Shown piece by piece: positions 21,738 through 42,085 of a DNA stretch of 64,000 bases. Position 1 is the first letter of the stretch. The number at the start of each line of letters is the position of its first letter. The stretch is from Salinibacter ruber DSM 13855 (GTDB lineage Bacteria > Bacteroidota > Rhodothermia > Rhodothermales > Salinibacteraceae): assembly GCF_000013045.1 (NCBI RefSeq), contig NC_007677.1, positions 558,001 through 622,000 on the forward strand. The letters are read 5' to 3'. The translations under genes and the position numbers were made by a program. Under the pieces are notes generated by a model. The model had not been told where the DNA came from. It was given only the letters and a program-made list of their open reading frames with translations, and did no database searches.

Positions 21738-22730
21738 ATGAATCTTTCTTCGACATCACTTCGCTCGTTCATCGCCGTGGTCGCGGCCGTTGGTCTCCTC
21801 GGGACCGGACTCGCCGGCTGCGGCGGGGGCGGGGATAGCCAGGACGTGTCCCGCAAGATGAACATGGTCACGGTGAACTGGATCGAGGGGATGGCCTTCA
21901 CCTACGTCCAGGAGCAGATCATGGAAAACCAGTACGACATGGAGGTTGACGTCCGGGAGGTGGGCGGCGGCGGCATTGCCTTCTCGTCGGTGGCCGAAGG
22001 GGACCGCGACTACTTCAACGAGGCGTGGCTCCCCACGACCCACCAGGACCCGTGGAGCAAGGCGCAGGGAAATGCCGCCAAGCTGGGATACACCTACAAG
22101 GGCACCTCGGTGGGCCTGACCGTGCCGGCGTACATGGACATTTCCAGCGTCTCGGAGCTGGAAAACTACCGCAACGAGCTCGGTGGCGAAATCAACGGCA
22201 TCGAGTCCGGCGCGGCGGTCAACGACCAGACGCGCAAGATCCTGGAGAACAACGGCCTCAACGACGAATTTTCGGTCGTGGCGTCCAGTGGCCCGGCGAC
22301 GTGGCAGGCGCTGGAGAACGCGGTCAACAACGAGCAGCCCATCGTCGTCACGGGCTGGTACCCGCACTGGAAGTGGGGCTCGTTCGACCTGAAGTACCTC
22401 GAAGGGGCGCAGACCGGACAGTCGCCCGTCTTCGGGGACCCCGAGGATGTCTTCAAGATCGTGGACAGCGAGTTCACGGAGGAGTTTCCGAAAGAGGTCG
22501 TGTGCTTCCTGAAGGTTTCGGAGGTGACCGACGAGGAGATCGAGAGCCTCATGGGCAGCTTCCGCAACCGCGGCGACATGAGCAAGCGGGAGGCCGCTAG
22601 CCAGTGGATTGAAAACCACTCGGAGGACGTCAACGCCTGGACCAAGCAGGCCGAGGAGTGCGCTGCCTCCGACGGCTCGGTGGAGACGCTTCCGGACGAC
22701 GCCACCTACTCGCGCAAGCAAAGCACGTAG
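21738..22730 (+). CDS. opuAC: Glycine betaine-type ABC transporter substrate-binding lipoprotein (1)
   Basis: A 330-residue periplasmic receptor anchored as a lipoprotein: lipobox LAGC with Cys28 after a hydrophobic signal. The OpuAC fold is visible: MVTVNWIEGMAFTYVQEQI, YFNEAWLPTTHQD, TGWYPHWKWGSFDLKYL, and aromatic residues (Trp, Tyr) that in this family form the cage for quaternary ammonium compounds. Betaine-like substrates are inferred from family. The ATG at 21738 gives the best signal peptide. It is followed by a strong terminator at 22759 and then by a paralogous receptor gene. Confidence 0.92.
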   Translation: MNLSSTSLRSFIAVVAAVGLLGTGLAGCGGGGDSQDVSRKMNMVTVNWIEGMAFTYVQEQIMENQYDMEVDVREVGGGGIAFSSVAEGDRDYFNEAWLPTTHQDPWSKAQGNAAKLGYTYKGTSVGLTVPAYMDISSVSELENYRNELGGEINGIESGAAVNDQTRKILENNGLNDEFSVVASSGPATWQALENAVNNEQPIVVTGWYPHWKWGSFDLKYLEGAQTGQSPVFGDPEDVFKIVDSEFTEEFPKEVVCFLKVSEVTDEEIESLMGSFRNRGDMSKREAASQWIENHSEDVNAWTKQAEECAASDGSVETLPDDATYSRKQST

Positions 22731-22758
22731 GCGTCTGATTCTGGTTTTGACGACGCAG

Positions 22759-22794
22759 CACCCCCGATTGCCGTCCGGCGGTCGGGGGTGTTTT
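22759..22794 (+). terminator. Intrinsic terminator between the two receptor genes
   Basis: CACCCCCGA pairs perfectly with TCGGGGGTG, extended by five more pairs (two G-T), with loop GTCC and then TTTTAT. It probably ends the opuAA-AB-AC transcript. Confidence 0.88.
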
Positions 22795-22892
22795 ATGGAC
22801 GGACATGGCGCCGACAGGCCCGCGCACGCCCTGCGCGAGCGCTCTTGGTGCCTTGCCTTTCATGCTACTTCTCTGATTAATGCGTCCTTCCA

Positions 22893-23912
22893 ATGAAACG
22901 ACTCATCACTGCGGCACGCGCCCTGTGCCGCTCGTACTGCGCGGCGGCCGTTGCCGCGTCGCTCCTTGCGCTGGGCACAATGGGCTGTGGGGGGGATGCC
23001 TCCGACAGCGCCGGTGGTGGCGCGTCGGCATCGTCGCCCCCCCTGAAGATGGTGACGGTGAACTGGATCGAGGGCCTCGCCATGAGCTACATGCAGGCCC
23101 AGGTGCTGGAGGACAGCCTGAACGTGCCGGTGGACCTGAAGGAAGCCCAGGGCGGCGGCATCGCCTTTTCGTCGGTGGCGGAGGGGGATCGGGACTTTTT
23201 CAACGAGGCCTGGCTCCCCACCACGCACCAAAACTCGTGGGGCGACCTCCAGGGTCAACTCCAAAAGCTCGGCTACACGTACCGGGGCACCTCGGGCGGG
23301 CTCGTGGTGCCGGCGTACATGGACCTTCGCTCGGCGGCCAACATCGGGGAGTACCGCGAGGCGCTCGGCGAAAAGATCTACGGCATTGAGGCCGGCTCCC
23401 CCACCAACGACAACATCCGCCAGGTGCTGGACCAGCACGGCATCGAGGGCTTCTCGGTGGTGGCGGCCAGCGGCCCGGCCACGTGGCAGCGCCTCCGAAG
23501 CGCCATCCAGGACCGCCAGCCGATCATCGTGGCGGGGTGGAAGCCGCACTGGAAGTGGAGCGCGTTTGACCTTCGGTACCTCAAGGACGGGAAGACGAAC
23601 CAGTCGCCCGCCTACGGGCCGCCGGAGGACATCTTCACGGTCGTCGACAACCAGTTCATCGACGAGTTTCCGAAAGAGGCCGTCTGCTTCCTGCAAAAGT
23701 TTGAGGTGACCGATCAGCAGATCGGCAGCCTCATGAACACGTTTCGCACCCGCGGCGACATGAGCAAGAGCGGGGCCGCCGAGCAGTGGGTGCGGAACCA
23801 CCCGGGGTACGTCACCCAGTGGCTCGACCAGGCCGAGGCGTGTGCCGCCTCGGACGAGGCCGTGACGCCCCTCCCGGACGACGCGACCCACTCACGCGAT
23901 CAGGAGGCGTAG
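22893..23912 (+). CDS. Glycine betaine-type ABC transporter substrate-binding lipoprotein (2)
   Basis: A 339-residue paralogue of the previous receptor, with the same blocks (MVTVNWIEGLAMSYMQAQV, FFNEAWLPTTHQN, AGWKPHWKWSAFDLRYL). The lipobox ends at Cys32 (LGTMGC). Differences cluster in the loop after the signal peptide (Ser/Ala/Gly-rich) and in the ligand-lobe region around YRGTSGGLVVPAYMD. No second ATPase or permease follows, so it probably feeds the same transporter with another ligand or affinity. It lies after a terminator and so likely has its own promoter in 22795-22892. Confidence 0.9.
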   Translation: MKRLITAARALCRSYCAAAVAASLLALGTMGCGGDASDSAGGGASASSPPLKMVTVNWIEGLAMSYMQAQVLEDSLNVPVDLKEAQGGGIAFSSVAEGDRDFFNEAWLPTTHQNSWGDLQGQLQKLGYTYRGTSGGLVVPAYMDLRSAANIGEYREALGEKIYGIEAGSPTNDNIRQVLDQHGIEGFSVVAASGPATWQRLRSAIQDRQPIIVAGWKPHWKWSAFDLRYLKDGKTNQSPAYGPPEDIFTVVDNQFIDEFPKEAVCFLQKFEVTDQQIGSLMNTFRTRGDMSKSGAAEQWVRNHPGYVTQWLDQAEACAASDEAVTPLPDDATHSRDQEA

Positions 23913-28445: not shown

Positions 28446-31277
28446 ATGGTTAACGGTTGGTATCGAGACCTTCTGTTGGTTGCGTTTCTTTTTCTGGTGG
28501 GGGCGGGAACGAGCCCACTGGTCGTTGCGCAGGACGCGAGTCCGAAAGAGGTAGATACGAATGGGACAGTAACCGGGGTTGTTGTGGAGGACGGGCGTGG
28601 AGGGCCGCTGCCGGGGGCCAACGTCCGTGTGGCCGGGTCGTCGACGGGCACGACGACAGACCTCAATGGACGATACCGCATTGAGAATCTTGACCCTGGA
28701 ACGTACGACTTGCGATTCTCCTTCGTCGGATTTCAGCAGAAGACTGTGACGGGGGTAGAGGTTACGGCGGGAGGGACCACGGAGATTGACATTACGCTGG
28801 CCGAAGAAACGGAGCGGCTCGACGAGGTGGTCGTGGAGGCCAAGGCCGCTCGCGACTCGGAGGCCGGTCTGATACTGAAGCGCGCCGAAGCGGCTGCCGT
28901 GAGCAATGCTGTTAGTGCCGAGACCATGAGCCGGGCCGGAGCCGGAACGGTAGCAGATGCGATGGGGCTGATGACTGGAGGATCGGTCGTAGAGGGCAAA
29001 CACGTAAACATTCGGGGCTTGCAGGGGCGATACGTCAACGTGCAGCTCAACGGTACGACACTCCCGAACGCAGACCCCGAGGGCAACAGTGTGGCGCTTG
29101 ACATTTTCCCGTCGAGTTTGATCGATAACGTCGTCACCGAGAAGACATTCACGCCGGACAAGCCCGGTACCTTTACGGGAGGCTCGGTCGACATCACGAC
29201 GAAGTCGTTTCCGAACGACTTTTTCCTAAACGCATCGGTCTCCACCTCTTCCAACAGCGAGGTGGGAGTCGGTGGCGGCATCCTGCTTCCCCCGGACGGA
29301 CTGGAAGAGGTGCCGCCCGTGGCGAACAGCAGCAGTGTTCCACCGGGGCCTACGTCGGACCCCGAGCGGCGCGACGCGCTAAACCAAGTGACGCAGGCGT
29401 TTGCCACTGGTGTGTCCCCGCGGTCCAACGACGTGCTCGGAAACCGAAGCGCGGAGGTTTCCCTCGGTGACCGGTTCTCCGTCATGGGAGATCGTTCGCT
29501 CGGCGTCATCGCCTCCTTGACGTACGACCACTCTTTTTCCGGATACAACGGGGGGACGACGGCCCGCTTCTCTCAAACGGGCATCAACGCGGAGCAGCTC
29601 CGCCCTGAGGCCTCCTACACGACACGGCGCGGCGTGGAAGAGACACTGTTCGGGGGGCTTGCGGGGATCTCGTTTCAGCTTACGCCCACGGACGAATTGG
29701 GAGTGCGTCTTCTCTACAACCGCGACGACGAGCACATCGCCCGATACGAATCGGGAATCCTTCCCCGTGACAATATCTCTGGAGACCGGAGATTCGAGAC
29801 GCGGGTGGCCCGTGTGATTGAGCGCACCGTACGGACGACGGAGCTTGACGGCACCCATCAGTTTGGCAGTGGGGCGGAGGGGGTGCGTCTTGAGTGGCAA
29901 ACAGCCTACTCGAAAGTAAGGCGGGAGGAGCCGGACAATCGCTTTTTTCCGAACGAGTTTTCTCCCGGAGAGCGCGACACATCGTTTGCCATCTCCGGGC
30001 CGGTCACCGGGCTTCCCACCCGATATTTCCGGGACCTCACGGAGCAAGATTGGTCGGGCGAAGCCTCGGTTGAGGTACCGGTGGGACCGACCCTCTTCGA
30101 AGCGGGAGGCCGCTTCCGAACGAAAACGCGGGAGTTTCGCGAACGCGTGTTCAAACATGACGCCCCTATCGGACACGGGTTTAGCGGACGTCCGGGGGCG
30201 TACGTCGATGAGCGGTCGGGCCTTCTTTCGGACGGGACGTTCGGCACCTACGTGACTGAAGTCCCATCGCAGGGCGGGAACTACGACGGGGCTCTCGACA
30301 CAGGGGCCGGCTACCTGATGACCGAGACCCCGGTGCCGGGCGTCCCGTCCCTCGAGTTCATCGGTGGGGTGCGGTTCGAGTACACGGACATGTCGCTAAA
30401 TACGCTCGACACCGACACAGAAGGGGCGTTTTCACAATTCGACGTGCTCCCCTCGGTGAATCTTGTCTGGACGCTCCGTGAGGACATGAACCTGCGCCTC
30501 GCCTACGGTCGCACCATTGCGCTGCCGTCCTTCCGGGAGTTTGCTCCGTTCCAGTCCTTCAACTTCATCGGGGACTTTACGGAACGAGGAAACCCAGCCC
30601 TCAAGCGCACGAGAGTCGACAACTTCGACCTGCGCTGGGAGTGGTTCCCCCGGGCCGGAGAGCTGTTGTCGGCGAGCCTGTACTACAAGGACTTCACCGA
30701 TCCGATCGAACGAACGTTCGTCGCGGAGTCCGTTGATCAAGGCATTATCACGTACCGAAATAGGGAAAGTGCAAGGGTCTACGGGGTGGAACTGGAAGCT
30801 CGAAAGCGACTGGGCGGCCTCGCTCCCTGGCTGGAGCACGTGCAGGTGGGGGGAAACCTCACGCTGACCCAGTCCCAAATCGACCGTACTGAGGAGGTGC
30901 TCACCCTCATTCGACAGTTTCGAGATGATCCAGACGAGACACGGCAGCTTCAGGGACAGTCGCCCTACATCGCGAACGTGAATGCGGGCTACGACAACCC
31001 CGAGACGGGCACGGCCGTGAACGTGTTCTTCAACCGGTTCGGCGACCGGCTCCAGACCGTCTCGGCGAACGGGGCGGACATCTTCGAGCGGGCCCGGAGT
31101 ACGCTAGACATTAACTTCTCGCAACGGCTGCTCCCGGGGGTGTCGGCGTCGATTTCGGTCAAGAATGTACTTAACAGCGACGAGGTCGTCTCGCAAACCT
31201 TCAAGGGGGACGAATTCATCAACGACCGGCGTCCACTCGGGCGCACCGTATCCGTCGGCGTGTCTTACAGCTACTAA
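28446..31277 (+). CDS. TonB-dependent receptor with carboxypeptidase-regulatory-like N-domain
   Basis: A 943-residue outer-membrane active-transport receptor. It has a signal peptide (LLLVAFLFLVGAGTSPLVVAQ), then a CarboxypepD_reg-like beta sandwich (about 40-125: VTGVVVEDGRGGPLPGANV, LRFSFVGFQQKTV). The plug domain (about 140-270) includes HVNIRGLQGRYVNVQLNG and GGSVDITTKSFP. The rest is a 22-strand-type barrel ending TVSVGVSYSY. The ligand is unknown. It is not a SusC-type receptor by obvious motif, and no SusD follows; instead a secreted lipoprotein gene lies 185 bases downstream beyond a strong hairpin terminator. Codon use is slightly less GC-rich than in its neighbours. Confidence 0.9.
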   Translation: MVNGWYRDLLLVAFLFLVGAGTSPLVVAQDASPKEVDTNGTVTGVVVEDGRGGPLPGANVRVAGSSTGTTTDLNGRYRIENLDPGTYDLRFSFVGFQQKTVTGVEVTAGGTTEIDITLAEETERLDEVVVEAKAARDSEAGLILKRAEAAAVSNAVSAETMSRAGAGTVADAMGLMTGGSVVEGKHVNIRGLQGRYVNVQLNGTTLPNADPEGNSVALDIFPSSLIDNVVTEKTFTPDKPGTFTGGSVDITTKSFPNDFFLNASVSTSSNSEVGVGGGILLPPDGLEEVPPVANSSSVPPGPTSDPERRDALNQVTQAFATGVSPRSNDVLGNRSAEVSLGDRFSVMGDRSLGVIASLTYDHSFSGYNGGTTARFSQTGINAEQLRPEASYTTRRGVEETLFGGLAGISFQLTPTDELGVRLLYNRDDEHIARYESGILPRDNISGDRRFETRVARVIERTVRTTELDGTHQFGSGAEGVRLEWQTAYSKVRREEPDNRFFPNEFSPGERDTSFAISGPVTGLPTRYFRDLTEQDWSGEASVEVPVGPTLFEAGGRFRTKTREFRERVFKHDAPIGHGFSGRPGAYVDERSGLLSDGTFGTYVTEVPSQGGNYDGALDTGAGYLMTETPVPGVPSLEFIGGVRFEYTDMSLNTLDTDTEGAFSQFDVLPSVNLVWTLREDMNLRLAYGRTIALPSFREFAPFQSFNFIGDFTERGNPALKRTRVDNFDLRWEWFPRAGELLSASLYYKDFTDPIERTFVAESVDQGIITYRNRESARVYGVELEARKRLGGLAPWLEHVQVGGNLTLTQSQIDRTEEVLTLIRQFRDDPDETRQLQGQSPYIANVNAGYDNPETGTAVNVFFNRFGDRLQTVSANGADIFERARSTLDINFSQRLLPGVSASISVKNVLNSDEVVSQTFKGDEFINDRRPLGRTVSVGVSYSY

Positions 31278-31340
31278 AGCCTACTTCGTACCGCTGGGGC
31301 CCCATCGCCCCGACGCACCACTACTCCTTTTCGATTGCCT

Positions 31341-31382
31341 CGAGGGGGCGAGCCACACGTTGGCTCGCCCCCTCGGTGGTTT
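31341..31382 (+). terminator. Strong hairpin between TonB receptor and lipoprotein genes
   Basis: A perfect 15-base-pair stem: arm 31341-31355 (CGAGGGGGCGAGCCA) pairs with 31361-31375 around a five-base loop. Only a short GGTTT tail follows, so it may be leaky and set the ratio of receptor to lipoprotein. Confidence 0.8.
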
Positions 31383-31462
31383 GTGGGAGGAAGTTATGGA
31401 ATTAAAAACTCCGTGCTCCCACGACTAACACCCTACCTCTTCTCTCTAAACCACACGCGACC

Positions 31463-33094
31463 ATGAACTTTTTCCGTACAACCATACTGGAATCGCGATC
31501 GCTTGGACCCCTGTTCGTCGGTCTCCTGCTCATTCCCGCCCTTGTGTTTATCACGGCGTGCGACTCGAATGGCAGCGGCGACAACATGGACTCCCCTCCG
31601 GCCGAGCAGGAGCCAGCACGGCTGGATACAGGGCCGGTAGAGGAAACGGACACCAACGTCGACGTTGATTATGACGACGATGGCACGGCGGAGGTCGTGC
31701 GGGTAACCGACGTGAACAACAACGGAGTCGTGCCCCGTGACGCGAATGGAAGCACGGTCACCTGGAGCAGCGACAAGACATACGAGCTCAACGGCTTCGT
31801 CTTCGTCAATCCCGGGGACACCCTCGAAATTGAGCCCGGTACTGAAATCCAAGGGCGACTCGGCGGGGGGGCAGACGCCTCGGCCCTGATCGTCGCGTCG
31901 GGCGGGGTCATTGAGGCCGAAGGGACGGCGTCCGATCCGATCGTCTTCACGTCTGTGCGTGCCGCGGACGAGACCCTCGGCCGGGACGACCGCGGACTCT
32001 GGGGTGGCGTCATCCTGCTTGGAGATGCGCCGACCAACAACGGGTCGGAGGTCGCCATCGAAGGCGTACCCGACAACACAGGGGCCCGCATTCTCTACGG
32101 CGGTCAGAATGTTGATCACGACGTTGGCACCTTCAAGTACGTTTCCATCCGCCACACCGGCACCCAACTCGGCAACGGCGATGAAATTCAGGGCCTGACG
32201 CTCGGCGGCGTGGGCAGCGGCTCGACCATTGAGTACGTGGAATCGTACGCCAGCGACGACGATGGCTTCGAGTGGTTTGGGGGCACCGTCAACACCAAGT
32301 ACCTGATCACGGCCTACGAATCGGACGACGCCTTCGACATCGATCAGGGCTACCGCGGCAGCAATCAGTTCTGGCTGGCTGTACAGGGCGGAAACGAATC
32401 TGGACGAGCGTCCGAGATGGACGGTGCCGGCTCTCCGGAAAGCGCCGAGCCGTACGCCGAGTCGATCATCTCCAACGCGACGTACCTCGGCATGGGCCCT
32501 GGTGTAAGCGACGCCTCGGGGGACGCGAATGACCCCTTCATCATCCACCGCGACAACAACGCGACCTCTTACCACAACAGTGTCTTCGCCGGCGGACGGA
32601 CGAACGCAGGAATCCAGATCGAAGACCTGGAGGCCGGGAGCGAAGACGCCGCCAACCGCTGGGCGGCCGGGCAGTTGGAGCACCAGGACAACCTCTGGTA
32701 CAACATCGGGCCGGGCTTCAGTGGCCAAACGACGTTCGAGGATCTCATCCAGCTGACCACGGACGACGACGGCACCCCGTCCGGCGACCGGGGCAATGCA
32801 CTCAAGGGGAACCTCGCGGACTACCTCCGCAGCGAGAACAATGCGATCGTAAACAAAAATCCGTACGCGAGCATCAGCCGGACGAACGGAAACGGCGCGA
32901 TCCAGAGCTTCGACCCAACACCGGTCAACGCCGCGACCAGCGGCGCCAACGAGCCGAGTGACTTCGGCAATAAGTCGGCGGGAGTGAATGACAGTTGGAC
33001 AAGCGTCAGCTTTCGAGGCGCCTTCGGCTCAGGGGCGGAGTGGAACTTAGACAGTGACTGGGCGAAGATCACCCAGGACGGCACTGTGCAGTAG
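31463..33094 (+). CDS. Secreted lipoprotein with beta-helix-like repeats, partner of the TonB receptor
   Basis: A 543-residue lipoprotein (signal LLLIPALVFITAC, acylated Cys33) with an acidic linker of about 70 residues. The body is rich in Gly/Asn/Asp turns (FVFVNPGDTLEIEPGTEIQG, ALIVASGGVIEAEGTASDP, GLWGGVILLGDAPTNN), resembling a right-handed parallel beta helix. This architecture is seen in surface lipoproteins that accompany TonB receptors in Bacteroidota and gammaproteobacteria. No catalytic motif is recognised, so binding of a ligand for the receptor upstream is the inference. It is followed by a strong terminator at 33141. Confidence 0.75.
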   Translation: MNFFRTTILESRSLGPLFVGLLLIPALVFITACDSNGSGDNMDSPPAEQEPARLDTGPVEETDTNVDVDYDDDGTAEVVRVTDVNNNGVVPRDANGSTVTWSSDKTYELNGFVFVNPGDTLEIEPGTEIQGRLGGGADASALIVASGGVIEAEGTASDPIVFTSVRAADETLGRDDRGLWGGVILLGDAPTNNGSEVAIEGVPDNTGARILYGGQNVDHDVGTFKYVSIRHTGTQLGNGDEIQGLTLGGVGSGSTIEYVESYASDDDGFEWFGGTVNTKYLITAYESDDAFDIDQGYRGSNQFWLAVQGGNESGRASEMDGAGSPESAEPYAESIISNATYLGMGPGVSDASGDANDPFIIHRDNNATSYHNSVFAGGRTNAGIQIEDLEAGSEDAANRWAAGQLEHQDNLWYNIGPGFSGQTTFEDLIQLTTDDDGTPSGDRGNALKGNLADYLRSENNAIVNKNPYASISRTNGNGAIQSFDPTPVNAATSGANEPSDFGNKSAGVNDSWTSVSFRGAFGSGAEWNLDSDWAKITQDGTVQ

Positions 33095-33140
33095 AAAGCG
33101 ACTGTACGCTGGTACGTTGCGTCACACGAAGCTTCCTTCG

Positions 33141-33180
33141 CCGGGCATCCCCGATTGACGGGGGTGCCCGGTGTTTTTGT
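33141..33180 (+). terminator. Intrinsic terminator after the lipoprotein gene
   Basis: CCGGGCATCCCCG pairs with CGGGGGTGCCCGG (one wobble) with loop ATTGA, followed by TGTTTTTGT. Confidence 0.9.
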
Positions 33181-33299
33181 GTTGGGGCCCCGAGGGCGGG
33201 CCCGGAAGGCCACTCGCCGACTGGGAACGGAGCACCCGCATCTCGTGTGCGTGTGGTAGTCCAGTCGGAATGTCCCACCCACCACGCACCGGCGACGCA

Positions 33300-34451
33300 A
33301 TGGCGCTGCGCTGTCTTTTTGTCGTCCAGGGCGAGGGCCGCGGCCACCTCACGCAGGCGATGGCCCTGCGGCGCATGCTCCGGGACGCCGGGCATCGGGT
33401 CGCCGGGGTCGTCGTGGGCAAGAGCGACGACCAGGCCGTGCCGGCCTTCTTCCGGGCGGCGTTCGAGGCCCCCGTCACGGACGTCGAGAGCCCTGGCTTC
33501 GTGTCGGACGACGCGGACCGCTCGGTGCGGCCGTGGGCCACGCTGCGCCGGGCGCTCGGGCGCACGCCGACCTACTGGCGCAGCCTGTCGGCCCTCGACG
33601 CCGCCATCAAGCGCCATGACCCGGACGTGGTGGTGAATTTCTTTGAGCCCCTGATGGGCCTCTACGCCGTGACGCATTCGCCGTCCGTGCCGGTCGTGGC
33701 GGTGGCACACCAGTATATGTTTTTGCACCCCGCCTACCGATTTCCGTCGGGGCGCAGGGACAAACGGTGGGCGGCCCGTGCGTTTGCTCGCCTCACGGCC
33801 TGCGGCGCCTCACGGCGCCTCGCGCTCTCGCTCTACCCGGCCCCCGATCGCTCCCAAGACGACCTGGCCGTGCTGCCGCCGCTCCTGCGGCCCGGGGTGT
33901 TCCGCCAGCCCCAGGACCGAAGCGAGCCCTTCATTCTCGTCTACATCCTGAACAGCGGGTACGCCGACGAGGTGATCCGGTGGCACGAGCAGAACCCGAC
34001 GGTGCCGCTCCACTGCTTCTGGGACCGGCCGGACGCGGCCCCCGTGGAGGCCTACGACGAGACGCTGACCTTCCACCAGCTCGACGACGAGAAATTCCTC
34101 CGCCTCATGGCCCGGTGCCGCGGCTTCGTGTCCACCGCCGGCTTTGAGTCGATCGCGGAGGCGATGTACCTGGGGACGCCGGTCCAGGTGGTGCCGGTGG
34201 AGGGGCACTACGAGCAACGCTGCAATGCCGTCGACGCGGTGCGGGCCGGCGCAGGGGTGCGCAGCACGCAATTCGACATCGGGCACCTCCGGGCTGCGCT
34301 GGACCGCGGATCGACCCCGGAGGCGCGCTTCCAGGCGTGGGTGCGGCAGGGGCGCCGCCGCTTCGTGCGAGAGCTTGAGGCGGCCGCCCGCCGCCCTGTC
34401 GCCGGGTCTTTGGGGCCGCGGGTGGCGGAGCGAATTCTTGAGGCGGCTTGA
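33300..34451 (+). CDS. GT-B glycosyltransferase-like protein (MurG/UGT type)
   Basis: A 383-residue protein with the two-Rossmann GT-B pattern. The N-terminal lobe begins LFVVQGEGRGHLTQAMALR, where the GxGHxxR-like loop is typical of MurG/UGT-like enzymes. The C-terminal lobe contains GFVSTAGFESIAEAMYLGTP and VVPVEGHYEQRCNA, the nucleotide-sugar-binding region. Acceptor and donor are unknown; related proteins are often annotated simply as glycosyltransferases. The ATG at 33300 was preferred over one 30 bases upstream because the domain begins immediately. It precedes the frameshifted nuclease-family gene by 45 bases on the same strand. Confidence 0.8.
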   Translation: MALRCLFVVQGEGRGHLTQAMALRRMLRDAGHRVAGVVVGKSDDQAVPAFFRAAFEAPVTDVESPGFVSDDADRSVRPWATLRRALGRTPTYWRSLSALDAAIKRHDPDVVVNFFEPLMGLYAVTHSPSVPVVAVAHQYMFLHPAYRFPSGRRDKRWAARAFARLTACGASRRLALSLYPAPDRSQDDLAVLPPLLRPGVFRQPQDRSEPFILVYILNSGYADEVIRWHEQNPTVPLHCFWDRPDAAPVEAYDETLTFHQLDDEKFLRLMARCRGFVSTAGFESIAEAMYLGTPVQVVPVEGHYEQRCNAVDAVRAGAGVRSTQFDIGHLRAALDRGSTPEARFQAWVRQGRRRFVRELEAAARRPVAGSLGPRVAERILEAA

Positions 34452-34496
34452 TGCGGGGCCCGCCCGTCCGTTGAACGTTCGCAACGAGGCATCGCC

Positions 34497-35596
34497 ATGG
34501 GGCTCCAACGCGCATTGCAGGGGCTGGCGTGGAGCGGGGCCGGGCTGCTGGTCGCCGCGTTCCTGATGGGCTACGCGGCGCCGTACCTCCCGCCGGCCCG
34601 CTTCTGGTGGACGGACCTGTTTGCCGTGCTGCTTCCCGCCCTCGCCGGGGCGGTCGGCCTGCTGGGCATCGGGCTGGTGGGCCAAGGGGCCTACTCGGGA
34701 CGGTGGGGGCGCCTGGGGATCGGGGGGCACTGCTCCTGCTCGTCGCACTGCGGTTTGGAACGGTGCCAACGGGGGAGGCGTCGGGGCGCGACGCGGACGC
34801 GCTGCGGGTGATGACGTTCAACCTGTCCCCTGCATTCGCCCGCGGGCCGGACCGCGAGCGTACGCTGGCTGAGCTCGTCCAGCGGGAAGCGCCCGCCGTG
34901 CTGAGCGTCCAGGAGACGTGGATGAAAACACGGTCGGCGTCGGACGGCGGGGGGCTGTTTGTGTCCTGGCCGCTCCGGGTGCTCCTGGAAGACTCGGTCG
35001 GGTACGCCCTTCCACGGGCCCGCCCCCCTGAGACCACGATCTACCGGCCGGTGCTGGGACAGGTGCGATTGGACTCGATGCGTGTGCACCCGTTGCCCCC
35101 GTCCGGGGGATCCGACCCCCGTTCCCGCTACACGCGTACGTTTTTCACCTGGCAGGGGCGTCCCGCCGTGCTCTACAACGTCCACCTCCACACGGTGGGC
35201 ACTCGCCCCTGGGACCTGCCGGGCACGGCCGCCTCGCTTGCGCGCTGGCGCACCTTCCTGCGAACGTACCGGGCGGGGGCGCTGCACCGTGCCGACCAGG
35301 CCCGCCGCATCCACCGGCACATCGAGCAGGAAACGCGCCCGGTGCTCGTAACGGGCGACTTCAACAGCACCCCACACCAGTGGGCCTACCGCCACCTACT
35401 GCAGGGCCTTAGGGCGGCGGGCGGGGGCGCCACCTTTCCGGCCGGGTGGCCCCTCGTACAGATCGACCATGTCCTGGTCGGGCCGGAGTGGCGTGTCGGC
35501 TCGGCCACCGTTCCGGGGCTGGAGGCCACGGACTTCGTGTCGGACCACCGTCCCGTCGTCGCCCGGGTCCGGTGGCGGGACGGCTACGAGGAGTAG
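34497..35596 (+). pseudogene. Endonuclease/exonuclease/phosphatase family membrane protein, frameshifted in a G6 tract
   Basis: The first part (from the ATG at 34497) encodes two membrane helices (GLAWSGAGLLVAAFLMGYAA; DLFAVLLPALAGAVGLLGIG). The frame is then lost at a run of six G (34722-34727). The next frame continues with a third helix (ALLLLVALRFG) and a complete EEP domain: VMTFNLSPAF, SVQETWM, NVHLHTVG, VTGDFNSTPHQ and DFVSDHRPVV, the catalytic metal-binding and His motifs. One extra G would join the two parts into a roughly 366-residue protein of the YafD-like type. The break could be a sequencing error, a real mutation or slippage-based variation. If broken, translation could start near the ATG at 34810. 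The 3' end overlaps phoU by 13 bases, tail to tail. Confidence 0.8.
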
Positions 35597-36294
35597 GAGG
35601 AGCGGAGGGGCGATCTGCTGCCGGGGGCCATCTCCTCCTGCACGCTGGCGTGGCGGATGTCGACGCCCTCGATGAGAAAGACGACGCCCTTCGCGATGTT
35701 GGTCGAGTGGTCCGAGATCCGCTCGATGGCCTTGCTGGCGGTGATCAGGTGGGCGGCCACCTCGGCATGCTCGGGATTCTTCTGGATGTAGTCCACCAGC
35801 CCCCGAAAGTTTTCGTGGTGGAGGCGGTCCACCTCGTCGTCCAGATCGGGAATGCTGCGCGCCAGCTCTGCGTCCTGGTCCAGGAAGGCCTGCTTCGCCT
35901 CGTCGAGCATGCGGCGGGCCGCCTGGCTCATCTCGCGGATTTTGACCGCGTCCAGGACACCGGGGGCCTCGGTCACGTGCTCCGCGTTGCCGGCCAGGTT
36001 GCGGCAGTGGTCCCCAATCCGCTCCAGGTCGGTGTTGATCTTTTCGACCGTGAGCAGGGTGCGGAGGTCGGTGGCGACGGGCTGGTGGCGGGCCAGGATG
36101 CGCTGGCAGTACTCGTCGACTTCCAGCTCCAGGGCGTCGACCTCACGGTCACGGTCCATGATGCGCTCGGCCTGGTCCACGTCGTGGGCGAGCAGGGCGT
36201 CGACGGCGTCGGTAAACTGCTCGGCCACGATGGTGGCCATGTCGAGCAGGCGGCTGCGGAGCTCCGTAAGTTCGCGGGCGAGGCGGTTCGGCAT
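35584..36294 (-). CDS. phoU: Phosphate transport system regulatory protein PhoU
   Basis: A 236-residue cytoplasmic regulator of phosphate uptake signalling. Two repeats of a three-helix unit are visible, each with an acidic metal-binding motif (EKINTDLERIGDHCRNLAGNA; KAIERISDHSTNIAKGV). The start is the ATG at 36294 (MPNRLARELTELRSRLLDMA). Length fits the family. The pst transporter genes and phoR/phoB are not adjacent in this window; upstream (minus strand) lies a glycosyltransferase pair that is unrelated. It is convergent with the nuclease-family gene, overlapping at the 3' ends. Confidence 0.95.
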   Translation of the reverse strand: MPNRLARELTELRSRLLDMATIVAEQFTDAVDALLAHDVDQAERIMDRDREVDALELEVDEYCQRILARHQPVATDLRTLLTVEKINTDLERIGDHCRNLAGNAEHVTEAPGVLDAVKIREMSQAARRMLDEAKQAFLDQDAELARSIPDLDDEVDRLHHENFRGLVDYIQKNPEHAEVAAHLITASKAIERISDHSTNIAKGVVFLIEGVDIRHASVQEEMAPGSRSPLRSSYSS

Positions 36295-36437
36295 GAAGGT
36301 CCCGGTCGGGTCGTCGGATGATATTTGAGCACTGTCATACGACCGGGGCAGCGGAATGTGCCGTCGGGTCGTAGAAGCCCGGGCCCGGTCGTTCCCGACG
36401 GCGGCCCGAGTGGCAAGCGGCTCCGCCCGGCGGGCCG

Positions 36438-37649
36438 CTATCCCGCCGCGTGGGAATGGGCAGGGGGGCGACCGGTCGTGTCGGGGGCGGGCGGGGTGCC
36501 CTGCCGCCACAGGGTGCGCAGGACCGACAGGTACGTGTCGGCGACGGCGGGCCACCCGAACGTGTCCTCGGTGTGGTGGAGGGCCCGCTGTGCGGCGGCG
36601 TCCAAGGCCTCGGAGTCGTTGCGGTACGCCGCGATGGCGTCCACGAACGCGTCGGGGGACTGGGGGGCGACGAGATGGCCGTTCACGCCGTCGGCAATCA
36701 CATCCTGGATGCCCTCGAGGCGGGCGGCGACGGCGGGGGTGCCGCACTGCCCGGCTTCGAGCAGCACGATCCCGAATCCCTCCATGTCGTCCTCGACGGG
36801 CACGTTGGGCATCACGAACAGGTCGGCCCCGCGGTAGAGGGCGCCCAGGGTGTCGTTCGGAATCCGGCCCAGGAGGCGGACGCGAGGAGCCAGGTCGTGC
36901 CGCGCGATGGCGGCCTCGATCGTGTCGAGCTCGGGGCCGTCGCCGGCGACCCAGTAGTGAACGTCGGCGGGGAGGCGGGGCATCACGGCGTCGACGAACC
37001 AGGCCGTGCCCTTACGCTCGACCTGTCGTCCCACGCTGCAGAGCAGGAGCCCGTCGGGTGGGGGGGAGGGGGGCGACGCCTCCACACTCGCGGCCAGGGC
37101 CCGGCGGGCCGTTGCCCGATCGGCGGGCGCCTCGAAGCGATCCGTGTCGATGCCGTTGGGCACGACGCGGAGCTGGGTGGGGGCGGCGCCGCGGTCGAGG
37201 CAGGCCTGGCGGGTGGCCCGGCTGACCGGGAGCACCGCGTCGAGGGCGCCGAACACCTTTGGGACGAACCACTGGTAGGGCGGGAATGGGGTCGTCACGT
37301 CCAGCCCGTGCACGATGGCGGCCGTCCGGACCCCGTGTCGGCGGAGCAGGCCCTGCAGGGGCACCGCGAGGCTGGCCGTCACCATCGAGGAGAAAAGAAC
37401 GACGTCGACGGCGTTCTGCCGGGCGGCCCGGGCAATCTGCCAGCCGGCCCGGGCGAGAAACAGGGGCGTCTTCAGGTGCACCGTGCGCCAGGCGCTGCGC
37501 AGCAGCAGGGCGTCGTAGTCGAGCGCGTTCGCGTCGGCCCGGGCCTCCAGGGTCTCGTGGAGCTTCAGGGCAACGCGCTGCATGCCGCCCACGTTGGCCA
37601 GGGGGCGGCCTTCGGGCGGGAGCGAATGGGAGACGAAGAGAAGGCGCAC
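36438..37649 (-). CDS. Glycosyltransferase family 4 protein
   Basis: A 403-residue GT-B retaining glycosyltransferase. The N-lobe begins RLLFVSHSLPPEGRPLANVGG and includes AAIVHGLDVTTPFPPYQ. The C-lobe has the GT4 features LCSVGRQVERKGTAWFVDAV, VAGDGPELDTIEAAI and NVPVEDDMEGFGIVLLEAGQ, where the E-x7-E-type motif contacts the donor. The start is a GTG at 37649, 29 bases after the stop of the GT4 gene upstream, so the two are probably one operon. It is likely involved in glycolipid or surface polysaccharide synthesis; sugars unknown. Confidence 0.88.
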   Translation of the reverse strand: MRLLFVSHSLPPEGRPLANVGGMQRVALKLHETLEARADANALDYDALLLRSAWRTVHLKTPLFLARAGWQIARAARQNAVDVVLFSSMVTASLAVPLQGLLRRHGVRTAAIVHGLDVTTPFPPYQWFVPKVFGALDAVLPVSRATRQACLDRGAAPTQLRVVPNGIDTDRFEAPADRATARRALAASVEASPPSPPPDGLLLCSVGRQVERKGTAWFVDAVMPRLPADVHYWVAGDGPELDTIEAAIARHDLAPRVRLLGRIPNDTLGALYRGADLFVMPNVPVEDDMEGFGIVLLEAGQCGTPAVAARLEGIQDVIADGVNGHLVAPQSPDAFVDAIAAYRNDSEALDAAAQRALHHTEDTFGWPAVADTYLSVLRTLWRQGTPPAPDTTGRPPAHSHAAG

Positions 37650-37678
37650 GGGGGATGCCGACCGGTGGTGGGAAGACG

Positions 37679-38914
37679 CTACGCAGTTGCGCCCGTCGGG
37701 GCCGGGTCTTGCGGGGAGGGAGACGGAGGATGGGGGAGCACCTCGTCGTAGTACCGGCTCATGCGGTTCAGGACGGCGGGCCAGGTGAAGTCCTGGGCGC
37801 GCTTGCGGGCGGCGGTGCCCATGCGGTCGCGACGCCGCTCGTCGACGACGAGGGTGCGCACCGCCTCGGCAAACGCCTCGACGTGACCGGGGGAGCAGAG
37901 CCGGCCCGTGGTGCCGTCGTCCACGAGGTCGCGGCTGCCGGCCGCGTCGGCACAGACCGTCGGCAGGCCCGATGCCATCGCCTCCAGGGTCACGTTGCCG
38001 AACGTTTCGGTGTCGCTCGGAAACAGAAAGACGTCGGACGAGGCGTAGGCCTCTGCCAGGTCGGTGCCGTCGAGGAAGCCGGGAAAGGTGGCGTTCGGCA
38101 GGCGGGTTTCCAGCTCCTCCCGCGCCGGGCCGTCGCCCACGACCAAACTGTGGTGGGGGACGCCCTGGCGCTCCAGCCGATCGATGACGTCGGCGTACAC
38201 GTCGAGCCCCTTCTCCCACACGAGCCGACTGACGAACGCGACGACCACCTCGTCGGTGCCGATGCCGTGGGCCCGGCGCCACGCGGCGGAGCGGCGGCTC
38301 GGGGCGAAGCGGTCGGTGTCCACCCCGCGGGGCCAGAGCCGAAGGTCGCTGTCGATGCCGTGTCCCCGAAGCACGTCCGCCATGGCGTGGGTGGGGACGT
38401 AGACCTGCCGGCACTGGTTGTAAAACGAGCGCAGGTAGCCCCAGACGGGCGCCTCCAGCAGGCCGAGGTGGTAGTACTTGAGGTAGGAGCTGAAGTGGGT
38501 GTGGTAGGACGTTACGACGGGCGTGTCGGTGTCCTGGGCGCGCTGGAGGGCATTGTGCCCCAGGAGGTCGGGCGTAGCGATGTGGTACAGCGTCGGGGCG
38601 AAGTCGTCCAGCGCCTGCCGAACGGAGGGCGTGAGGCCCAGGGACAGCCGGTATTCCGAGCGGCCGGGCACCGGCAGGGAGGGCACGGACGTGAGCGTGC
38701 CGGCGTGGTCCTCGATGGCCGGGTCGTCCACCGTGGGGGCGAAGACGCGTACCTCAGCGCCTTGTTGCTCCAGGTGCTCGACGAGGCGGTTGAGCGTGAG
38801 CGAGACCCCGTCGGCGATGTGGGTGTAGGCCCCGGCAAAGAGCGCGATGCGCCGGGTAGAGCGGCGGGAGGGACGATCGGCGCGCGAAGATTGCGGGTTG
38901 GGGGCGGGGCTCAT
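37679..38914 (-). CDS. Glycosyltransferase family 4 protein (diacylglycerol glycosyltransferase-like)
   Basis: A 411-residue GT4 enzyme resembling MgdA/sulfoquinovosyl- or glucosyl-diacylglycerol transferases. The segments IALFAGAYTHIADGVSLTLNRL, VTSYHTHFSSYLKYYHLG, WPRGVDTDRFAPSRRS, FVSRLVWEKGLDVYADVI, VVGDGPAREELE and DTETFGNVTLEAMASGLPTV (the E-x7-E region) are all in place. The start is the ATG at 38914. A role in membrane glycolipid synthesis is an inference from family similarity. It is co-directional with the GT4 gene just downstream and separated by a terminator from the metalloprotease upstream. Confidence 0.88.
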   Translation of the reverse strand: MSPAPNPQSSRADRPSRRSTRRIALFAGAYTHIADGVSLTLNRLVEHLEQQGAEVRVFAPTVDDPAIEDHAGTLTSVPSLPVPGRSEYRLSLGLTPSVRQALDDFAPTLYHIATPDLLGHNALQRAQDTDTPVVTSYHTHFSSYLKYYHLGLLEAPVWGYLRSFYNQCRQVYVPTHAMADVLRGHGIDSDLRLWPRGVDTDRFAPSRRSAAWRRAHGIGTDEVVVAFVSRLVWEKGLDVYADVIDRLERQGVPHHSLVVGDGPAREELETRLPNATFPGFLDGTDLAEAYASSDVFLFPSDTETFGNVTLEAMASGLPTVCADAAGSRDLVDDGTTGRLCSPGHVEAFAEAVRTLVVDERRRDRMGTAARKRAQDFTWPAVLNRMSRYYDEVLPHPPSPSPQDPAPTGATA

Positions 38915-39085
38915 GCAGGTGAGGGCACGGGCAAAGGGGCTACGCGAAACGGCGCCGGGGACGTGAACGCAACGCCCGCACGGCACTCGTAGTTGGGAAA
39001 GGATCTTCGAAATTACACAGCCGCCCTCAACCAGAAGAAAGTAACGCAGGCCGTCCTCCGGACGCCCTACACGAGGGACCGGCAC

Positions 39086-39120
39086 CAAAAAGGCCCCAGG
39101 GAGCAGACGTCCCTGGGGCC
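39086..39120 (-). terminator. Intrinsic terminator after the metzincin lipoprotein gene
   Basis: GGCCCCAGGGA (from 39092) pairs with TCCCTGGGGCC (to 39120); on the minus strand it is followed by TTTTT (39087-39091), 60-100 bases beyond the stop at 39184. Confidence 0.88.
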
Positions 39121-39183
39121 TCTGGCGTTTTGGGATGTTGCCGCCGGGGAAACGCGGACTGCTGTTCCCGCGGCCGCCACACA

Positions 39184-41802
39184 CTACTCGGTAGCGGTGG
39201 CCTCGTCGATCAGGTGAAGCACGTGGTCGGTGTGGGCGCGGGTCTCGGCGTTGACGCCGCGCTTGCGATCAATCATGCGCTCGATCTCCTGCAGGCTCTG
39301 GAGGGCCGCGCTCTGGGCCACGTTGTCGTACCGGGTGTTGCCTTCCTCGCCCACCACGGTCGCCAGGGACTCCACGTACGAGACCTGCAGGTTCTGGCGG
39401 AACGTGTTCACGTTGCCCTGCGCGTCGGCCGCAAAGACGGCGTCGGTGAGATCGCGCATGTACGCGGCCAGCGTGTACTCGTTGCCGTAGAGGCGCGTGT
39501 CGGTCATGCGCTCCAGCACGTTCGGGTGCAGGAGGTGGGCCAGCACATTTTCCTGAATGCCGAGCACGCGGGCGTGGACCTTCGGGTCCTCCGACGCGCC
39601 GAAGAAGTTAAACCCGCGTCGCTGCGGCTGCAGGTGGCGGTAGAGCTCGTTCGGAATGATCTCGAAGGCGTCCGGCGCGAACAGGTACTCGTTCAGGAGG
39701 TCGAGGGCCCGCTGCTGCTTCTCGAGGGGCACCGGGCGGTACGGCTCCGTGGCGCCCTCCTGCCCGATCAGCGCGCGGTCGACGTGAACGCCGCCCACGT
39801 AGCGGGAGGCGACGGCGGCCATCTGCGCGTGCTGGCCGGTCACGCTCAGGAAGGCATTCCGCAGCTCCTGGTACGACTGCCCGGGGTCCTCGTATTTCGT
39901 CAGGAGGTCGTCCATCAGGCCTTCAACGAGCTGCATGCGCCCCTCGGCGTAGTCGAGGGCCTCCTTCGACATGTCGCCGATCATCACGTCGGGATCGATG
40001 CCCTTGCCGGGGGCGCGCATGTCGTCCGCGTCGTTCCCGAAGGCAAGCGCCGGCTCCGTGGAGCGCGATAGGATGGCGTCGAGCTCCTGCTCAGAGGCAT
40101 CGGGCGTGTAGCCGTACTCGACGGCCCACACGTCGTAGGGACCGGGGCGGGTCGTGTAGTACTGCCCCTGATCGGTGTCCGGCGGGGCCACGTTCACCGC
40201 GGGGTAGTCCATGACCGAGCCGACGAGCCCCTTCTCTCGGGTGACCGAGGCGTCGTGCACCTCGTCGGTCGGGTGGAGCTGGGACGCCTTCATGTTGTGC
40301 TGCAGGCCCAGGGTGTGCCCCACCTCGTGCAGGGCGAGATAGTGGAGCGCCTCCTCCATGAGCTGCGTCATCTCGCCGTTCAGGTCCGAGGGGCCGCTCT
40401 GCTCGGGGCTCGGGTCCGCGGCGGTGGGGGTTAGGGCGGCCTTGCCGAAGAGCGTGTTCATGTGCAGGAAGCCGGGCAGCGTGCAGGCGTGCTTGGGCAG
40501 GGTCTTCGGCCGCTCGCTGGCGGCCTGGAGCGGCAGCCCGGTCTCCTCGAAGAGCTTGTTCTGGTTGACCTGATTGGTCAAGAACGCGTACTCCAGCATC
40601 ACGTCCGCGCCCATGATCTGGCCCGTGCGCGGGTTCACGAAGCTGGGGCCGTAGCCGCTAAAGGGCGGGTTGGGGGAGGAGGTCCAGCGCAGCACGTTGT
40701 AGCGGATGTCGCCCGCGTCCCAGGAGGCGGTGTCTGGCTGCACCTTGACCTCGATCGCGTTCTTGAAGCCGGCTTCGCGGAAGGCGGTGTTCCACTCCAG
40801 CACCGCGTCGCGGATGATCGGCCGGATGCGCTCGGGGGTCGTGTTCTCGATCCACCACGTGATCGGCTCCACCGGCTCGGAGAGCTCGGCGTCGGGGTTT
40901 TTCTTCTTCAGGTGCCAGCGGTTGATGAGGTCGTGGTAGGGCGTGGCGCTGGTGGAGGTCAGGTTGTCTTTCTGCTGGGTGAAGTACCCGACGCGCGGGT
41001 CCGCGAACCGGGGCTCGAAGTCGTTCTCCGGCACCTCAATGAGGCTGTGGCGCAGGGTGATCGTCACGTTGCGCGCGTCGGTCACCGCGTCGGAGCCCGG
41101 GTTGACGGGGCGCGGGTTTTCGAAGACGTAGTCGACGACCACGTCGGTGTTTTTCGGATAGTTGTGGACCCCCTCCACCTTCGACTTCTTTTGGCTCTGG
41201 CGGCCCAGCTTAAAGTCGGTGGGGGACCCTCCAGGGGTTGGAGACGGCTTGACCTGCGTGAGCGACTCGGTGAGAAACAGATCGTCGGCACTGATGAGGA
41301 GGCGGCCGGTCGAGTCGTTCTCGGCCACAATCTTCTCGACGTGGAGGACCGATGGGCTGACGTTGGCGTCCGAGGCGCGGCTGAGCGTGCTCTCGTCGTT
41401 GAAGTGGAAGTTGGTGTTCACCTCCACGAACTCAATCTGGTCGTAGTGGCGCCGGACCTTGAAGACGGTGTTGTCGCGGTAGGCCCCGCGGAAGGTGCCG
41501 GCCTCCAGCACCCCGTCGACGGTGTGGGTAAAGTAGATGTACTCCTGGCCGATCTGGCTGGGGGCGAGCGCCATCTGGAGCGAGCCGTCGGTCGTGTCGC
41601 GGTAGACGGTAAAGAGGCCGCCGAGCGAGTCGCTCTTGGCGATGGCCTTTTCAAAGTCGCTTTTTTCCTCGTCGGCGTTCTCGGCCTGCTGTTTCGCCGT
41701 CTGCGCCGAGGCGGACGAGTCCGTCATCTGCGCCGAGCTGCTACAGCCGACGATGAGGAGAAGCGTGAGGGGGAGGATCCAGAGGAGTGTGCGGGATCGC
41801 AT
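39184..41802 (-). CDS. Zinc-dependent metzincin-like metalloprotease lipoprotein
   Basis: An 872-residue lipoprotein (signal LLLIVGC, Cys20) with a linker, then a domain found in DUF5117/DUF5118 proteases (IYFTHTVDGVLEAGTFRG, RRHYDQIEFVEVNTNFHF). The metalloprotease core has the extended zinc motif HEVGHTLGLQH (His492, Glu493, His496, His502). An SVMDYPAVNV Met-turn-like segment follows. The C-terminal part is helical. It probably acts in the periplasm or on the cell surface; substrates are unknown. The ATG at 41802 gives a good lipoprotein signal. It is monocistronic, with its own terminator. Confidence 0.87.
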   Translation of the reverse strand: MRSRTLLWILPLTLLLIVGCSSSAQMTDSSASAQTAKQQAENADEEKSDFEKAIAKSDSLGGLFTVYRDTTDGSLQMALAPSQIGQEYIYFTHTVDGVLEAGTFRGAYRDNTVFKVRRHYDQIEFVEVNTNFHFNDESTLSRASDANVSPSVLHVEKIVAENDSTGRLLISADDLFLTESLTQVKPSPTPGGSPTDFKLGRQSQKKSKVEGVHNYPKNTDVVVDYVFENPRPVNPGSDAVTDARNVTITLRHSLIEVPENDFEPRFADPRVGYFTQQKDNLTSTSATPYHDLINRWHLKKKNPDAELSEPVEPITWWIENTTPERIRPIIRDAVLEWNTAFREAGFKNAIEVKVQPDTASWDAGDIRYNVLRWTSSPNPPFSGYGPSFVNPRTGQIMGADVMLEYAFLTNQVNQNKLFEETGLPLQAASERPKTLPKHACTLPGFLHMNTLFGKAALTPTAADPSPEQSGPSDLNGEMTQLMEEALHYLALHEVGHTLGLQHNMKASQLHPTDEVHDASVTREKGLVGSVMDYPAVNVAPPDTDQGQYYTTRPGPYDVWAVEYGYTPDASEQELDAILSRSTEPALAFGNDADDMRAPGKGIDPDVMIGDMSKEALDYAEGRMQLVEGLMDDLLTKYEDPGQSYQELRNAFLSVTGQHAQMAAVASRYVGGVHVDRALIGQEGATEPYRPVPLEKQQRALDLLNEYLFAPDAFEIIPNELYRHLQPQRRGFNFFGASEDPKVHARVLGIQENVLAHLLHPNVLERMTDTRLYGNEYTLAAYMRDLTDAVFAADAQGNVNTFRQNLQVSYVESLATVVGEEGNTRYDNVAQSAALQSLQEIERMIDRKRGVNAETRAHTDHVLHLIDEATATE

Positions 41803-42085
41803 GTCAAACGCAATTGCGTGGTGGAGAGAGTGAAGGGACGGAGGGCTCCGTCGCGGGGACCGGCCGTCGTCGCCCGGGACCCGTTTTAAGTGGGACGGAG
41901 AAGCAGGGCAACTGCTTCACGGAAGCGCTGCCGGGAGGTGAGGTTCCCACGGGTCGTGGGGCGGGTTTGCAGGAAACTGGCGACAATCACTCCCCAAGAC
42001 GTGCCCGCGCTGCTGGTTGTTACAGGGGAAGGGGGTAACCCGGGAAGAGGCCACACTGCTATCGAAGAAACGGTCTGAAGCGGGT

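Follow-up and report, generated by a model that had tools for sequence, protein, structure and literature searches.

A membrane-anchored EEP gene split at a G6 tract in two Salinibacter species, with signs that its enzymatic half is retained

Introduction

What does a bacterium still make from a gene whose membrane anchor and catalytic domain lie in two different reading frames? The 64 kb window of Salinibacter ruber analyzed here (positions 558001–622000 of contig 1, in a genome of 3,587,328 bases and two contigs, G000 below) contains such a gene, in which an anchor open reading frame (ORF) and an EEP-family frame meet at six Gs (Table 1). An earlier note on this DNA had described a one-base frameshift in this tract that splits a membrane-anchored EEP gene; its coordinates and frames hold, and 10 of the 12 loci compared within the genus are unsplit. 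Among the origins that the note had offered, a real mutation stands, as a change common to two species and not private to a strain, whereas sequencing error is unlikely and a slippage switch finds no positive support. The best reading, which we adopt tentatively, is an inherited frameshift that split the gene and left the EEP domain still made from a start of its own. In general terms, the case is ordinary in kind, namely, a frameshift split with overlapping stop and start, and it is more than an artefact.

Architecture of the split gene

Residues 1–75 of the anchor ORF match an intact relative, the L003 protein of Salinibacter altiplanensis, at 68%. The EEP frame is open across the G6 tract, its stop ending at 35596, and the EEP part scores 67.7 bits against PF03372 (curated cut-off 24.5), which places it within the EEP superfamily profile. 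The N of MTFN, QE, GDFN, and SDH are invariant across seven aligned sequences, including that of the window, so the catalytic motifs of the superfamily are present; we take them to carry the catalytic roles of N, E, D/N, and D-H. One added G rejoins the two frames, as had been proposed, and in alignment with the intact relative G002, the junction in G000 is net one base shorter. Taken alone, the G6 run is commonplace: single-base runs of at least six number 60 in the 64 kb window, 13 of them seven long and none of eight or more.

The tract falls inside a membrane helix. The earlier note had placed two helices in the first frame and a third helix with a complete EEP domain in the next. The G6 run cuts helix 3, which begins as WGRLGIGG in the anchor frame and goes on as ALLLLVALRFG in the EEP frame, and the EEP frame alone is below the helix threshold of the Kyte–Doolittle scan. 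A helix at this place is above threshold in five of the six intact relatives scanned; the exception, L007, passes the scan for just one helix overall. An AlphaFold2 model of intact L003 (mean pLDDT 68) has helices at residues 2–30, 33–67, and 70–87, followed by the EEP fold. As read from the alignment of intact relatives, Lys/Arg are mostly missing from the loop that joins helices 1 and 2, and both the N-terminus and the loop past helix 2 have Arg. Because of this Lys/Arg distribution, the positive-inside rule suggests that the EEP domain of the intact protein would face the periplasm.

The setting of the gene, between a glycosyltransferase and a convergent ORF with PhoU domains, is constant within the genus. 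A PhoU match was found in 13 of 13 genome loci (L010–L022) and a glycosyltransferase match in 12 of these, two of the 12 being short matches where the retrieved flank ends; the remaining locus is cut at a contig edge. The EEP and PhoU frames overlap tail to tail at 35584–35596, and the same end sequence is found in L003.

Table 1. Features of the split EEP locus and its surroundings (window coordinates).
Feature	Position	Strand	Description
Upstream glycosyltransferase, PF13528	33171..34451	+	45 bases before anchor ORF; coordinates are ORF limits
Anchor ORF	34497..34811	+	ATG 34497, stop TGA 34809–34811; 104 aa, two predicted membrane helices, frameshifted tail at end
Helix 1	34512..34568	+	Anchor ORF residues 6–24, Kyte–Doolittle scan
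Helix 2	34623..34679	+	Anchor ORF residues 43–61, Kyte–Doolittle scan
G6 tract, site of frame change	34722..34727	+	Net one base shorter than same stretch of intact relatives
Helix 3, second part (ALLLLVALRFG)	34727..34759	+	EEP frame; upstream of likely separate EEP start
Alternative start GTG, EEP frame	34763..34765	+	Would retain whole first EEP strand
GTGATG, possible re-start site	34808..34813	+	TGA 34809–34811 of anchor frame overlaps EEP-frame GTG 34808 and ATG 34811
EEP domain	34811..35596	+	261 aa; MTFN, QE, NVHLH, GDFN, QIDH, SDH all found; PF03372 1.6e-18; omega 0.069
Convergent ORF with PhoU domains	35584..36747	-	Overlaps EEP reading frame by 13 bases, 35584–35596

Distribution of the split

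The EEP part was found in all 13 genus genomes. With L021 left out of the frame comparison, as its locus begins at a contig edge, 12 loci were compared: helices and EEP domain lie in one frame in ten of them and are split in two, G000 and G005. The split is beyond chance since the same two stretches form one open frame in 10 of the 12 genus loci whose upstream region is present. Across the family, a relative of the intact protein is present in 21 of 27 genomes and absent from six; the two-frame form occurs only in G000 and G005 among the 27 genomes, the other matches being without an internal stop (G013, which matches in two pieces in open frames of equal length, was taken as one frame). A search for relatives of L003 in G000 or G005 (E 0.001) returned no second intact paralogue replacing the split gene, and PF03372 genes number six in each of these genomes, the split gene counted. 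Scans for the locus in IMG/VR and in a plasmid collection gave no match.

G005 is the closest relative (97% amino acid identity) and is split at the same G6. In both genomes, six Gs are followed by an identical stretch of 32 bases, and the bases directly before the tract differ. Since G runs are classically prone to one-base sequencing errors, a sequencing or assembly error in the tract might be suspected on general grounds. However, the same break is found in a second, clearly distinct genome; therefore, both a private mutation and a sequencing error, one of the options raised earlier, are unlikely, and we give the error very little probability. Sequence comparison marks G005 as a sister species and not a resequenced copy: DNA identity is 96.5% over 33139–41805, immediately upstream of which lies another gene region, and 92–96% in the other main aligned blocks.

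Several other features of this comparison can be described. The stretch at 28446–33094, which holds two ORFs, one of 543 aa and one of 943 aa that by eye looks like a TonB-dependent receptor, has only a patchy match to G005, with 67–71% identity at about 28.6–32.4 kb and flanks at 92–96%; it is a variable surface-gene region that may have been replaced. Two stretches at 21859–23903 cross-match each other's G005 counterparts at about 72% identity, which suggests tandem paralogues. Of the BLAST gaps against G005, 80 of 96 are not multiples of three, a count that was not converted to a frameshift rate because many gaps form apparent compensating pairs or fall in intergenic or paralogous hits.

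Constraint on the enzyme and the anchor

Provided that the frameshift is older than the divergence of the two alleles, differences between the split copies show selection on the broken gene. Selection was modeled on a fixed tree with our own four-taxon codon likelihood rather than with an established package. In the EEP core, G000 and G005 have 8 nonsynonymous and 22 synonymous differences (dN/dS 0.127). The codon likelihood for four genomes gives an omega of 0.069 (p = 8e-12 versus 1), not different from 0.110 on the intact/other branches (p = 0.30) and similar to the 0.073 of the glycosyltransferase neighbor. There is no further frame break in the core, which has 261 codons in all four genomes compared, at a dS of about 0.11. 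On this evidence, the EEP core is under strong purifying selection between the split copies, and its omega indicates that the enzyme half has been retained.

The anchor half is less clear-cut: the test spans 76 codons and has little power, with 7 nonsynonymous and 5 synonymous differences (dN/dS 0.56) and an omega of 0.33 (p = 0.08 versus 1; p = 0.15 versus 0.127 on other branches). Fisher's test gives p = 0.34 for neutrality of the anchor and p = 0.078 for anchor versus core. The anchor half is possibly less constrained than the core, the loss not being significant against the background.

These figures bear on whether the locus is a decaying pseudogene, drifting with neither half needed. A frameshift common to two genomes would fit such decay, as would an anchor compatible with neutrality in both the likelihood and Fisher tests. 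By contrast, the low omega of the core and the lack of a second disabling change in 261 codons at this dS speak against it; thus, the 'ordinary pseudogene' that the earlier note had allowed for is strongly disfavored and keeps a slim chance.

A second possibility is a reversible or repeated change in tract length, through phase variation or loss in laboratory culture, whereby G6 would have arisen separately in both isolates from a gene that had stayed intact until recently. This would account for a core under normal constraint and an anchor whose constraint has not clearly been lost, and G-tract switching has a precedent in Bifidobacterium breve, where tract-length switching is described at G10/G11 tracts (PMC9187656). 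However, six Gs are short in a window without any run of at least eight, and the ten intact genus relatives, read by eye, have no G run of at least six at the junction. Furthermore, the two sequenced copies agree in having six Gs, in a sampling of one genome per species. We consider such switching improbable.

Possible routes to a separate EEP product

Under the preferred reading of an inherited split, the likeliest route to the EEP domain would be translation re-start at GTG 34808 or ATG 34811, or initiation at GTG 34763. All three starts exclude helix 3, and so the product would be soluble. A soluble start near 34810, as the earlier note had suggested, is plausible, ATG 34811 sitting within a TGATG stop/start overlap (34809–34813) that is also present in G005, as translational coupling would have it; such an arrangement is common at re-start sites. 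GeneTack sorts frame transitions into pseudogene, phase variation, translational coupling, and programmed frameshift (PMC3711429); a stop and start within 10 nt is given there as a sign of translational coupling, which the overlap fits, although its classes require five or more genes and the split is seen here in two genomes. TGATG is found in 8 of the 12 genus loci, including 6 of the 10 intact ones; being encoded by the conserved [VL]MTFN and found in intact relatives too, it is not an adaptation.

Several observations count against the own-start reading: AlphaFold2 models the 261-aa product poorly (mean pLDDT 55, too weak to judge folding), a start at ATG 34811 shortens the first strand by three residues (model strand 103–109, M106 corresponding to ATG 34811), and TGATG is common in intact relatives. 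Residue 1 of E. coli ExoIII aligns with residue 103 of the L003 model. A G-rich, ribosome-binding-like stretch with GGAGG lies at 34770–34777 in both split genomes and is absent from intact G002; it is about 30 bases ahead of the re-start codons, farther than is usual for such a site.

A cytoplasmic soluble product of a formerly periplasmic enzyme may miss its substrate. If the EEP domain is periplasmic, a soluble product would be in the wrong compartment, and this speaks most strongly for some compensatory slippage, the main rival to an EEP product with its own start, which we regard as unlikely though well worth weighing. Ribosomes or RNA polymerase would slip at the G tract in a few rounds, and selection would preserve some full-length anchored protein. 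Consistent with this idea, the core is fully constrained even though an enzyme at the inferred periplasmic site would require its anchor. Comparison of the two copies shows neither a stop nor an indel in the anchor half, whose omega does not depart significantly from the other branches (0.33 versus 0.127, p = 0.15), and the helix-3 stretch past the tract is, by eye, identical over 32 bases in the split copies. There is also a precedent elsewhere: according to a review, low-level frameshifting on a G run makes up for an indel in a different system (PMC5009743).

On the other hand, the slip site reads C GGG GGG, where two-tRNA slippage would leave the first tRNA mispaired and single-tRNA slippage would be the only fit. 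The tract is just six long, and minimum free energy RNA folds near it are no stronger than those of shuffles (z +0.6 to +1.0 here, -0.23 in G005), with nothing unusual downstream. The conservation across genera expected of programmed ribosomal frameshifting is not found: the frame change occurs in 2 of the 12 genus loci, and the relatives are without the G run. The slippage-based switching of the earlier note finds no positive support, given the short tract, the ten intact relatives without a G run, and unremarkable folding. Nothing supports a dedicated slippage switch: there is no conserved run at the junction, no run longer than seven in the 64 kb window, and the minimum free energy RNA folds are ordinary.

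Relation to known systems

The closest counterparts are the intact three-helix EEP proteins of the genus (L003 and others), which resemble the window gene in locus, helices, and EEP motifs, with 50–73% identity to its EEP part, and differ from it in having one continuous frame and a junction without a G run. VanJ is a membrane EEP protein; its family (NF000373, teicoplanin resistance, Streptomyces) has weak similarity at the C-terminal end of the EEP domain (E = 0.0026). VanJ is the only named membrane candidate for the intact family, and it is far below the cut-off, with 17.2 bits against an NCBIfam cut-off of 700, outside that family.

Structure comparison with the EEP part of the L003 model retrieved a similar fold in TDP2, Bacteroides EEP proteins, neutral sphingomyelinase, and ExoIII (Z 14.6–17.9 among the 50 matches listed). 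Among the same 50 matches, EEP enzymes of known structure have 14–24% identity to L003, and its helices are not covered. The fold is that of EEP phosphodiesterases/phosphatases in general. Searched against PDB sequences at E 0.01, the window's EEP frame had no match.

Two metagenomic islands have been described at 249–358 kb and 776–846 kb, outside this window (PMC2800850). The main text of PMC6060240 contains no word beginning with frameshift or pseudogene. Among titles and abstracts on Salinibacter ruber frameshifts, strains/recombination, homopolymer frameshifting, and VanJ, none was recognized as dealing with this gene.

Implications for the EEP family in Salinibacter

The preferred reading, an inherited split, can be rationalized as follows. 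The ancestral product would have been a membrane protein of three helices whose EEP domain most likely faced the periplasm. In the common ancestor of G000 and G005, the junction probably lost one base, which generated both the G6 run and the frameshift in a single event. The EEP domain would still be produced as a working protein, as the purifying selection since the copies diverged suggests, and the anchor ORF would persist as a leader or remnant, possibly losing constraint.

The two routes could also coexist, such that one locus in two Salinibacter species gives two EEP forms, a soluble cytoplasmic one via re-start and a little anchored periplasmic one via slippage at G6. An accidental frameshift would then have become a fixed two-compartment arrangement, a prospect that we consider improbable. 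The locus is a clean example of a gene broken by one base with its enzymatic half under selection in two species. Should the EEP domain now be soluble, an enzyme that faced the periplasm would have changed compartment in one step; if the full-length protein is still made, the locus would show compensatory slippage occurring naturally on a short run of Gs.
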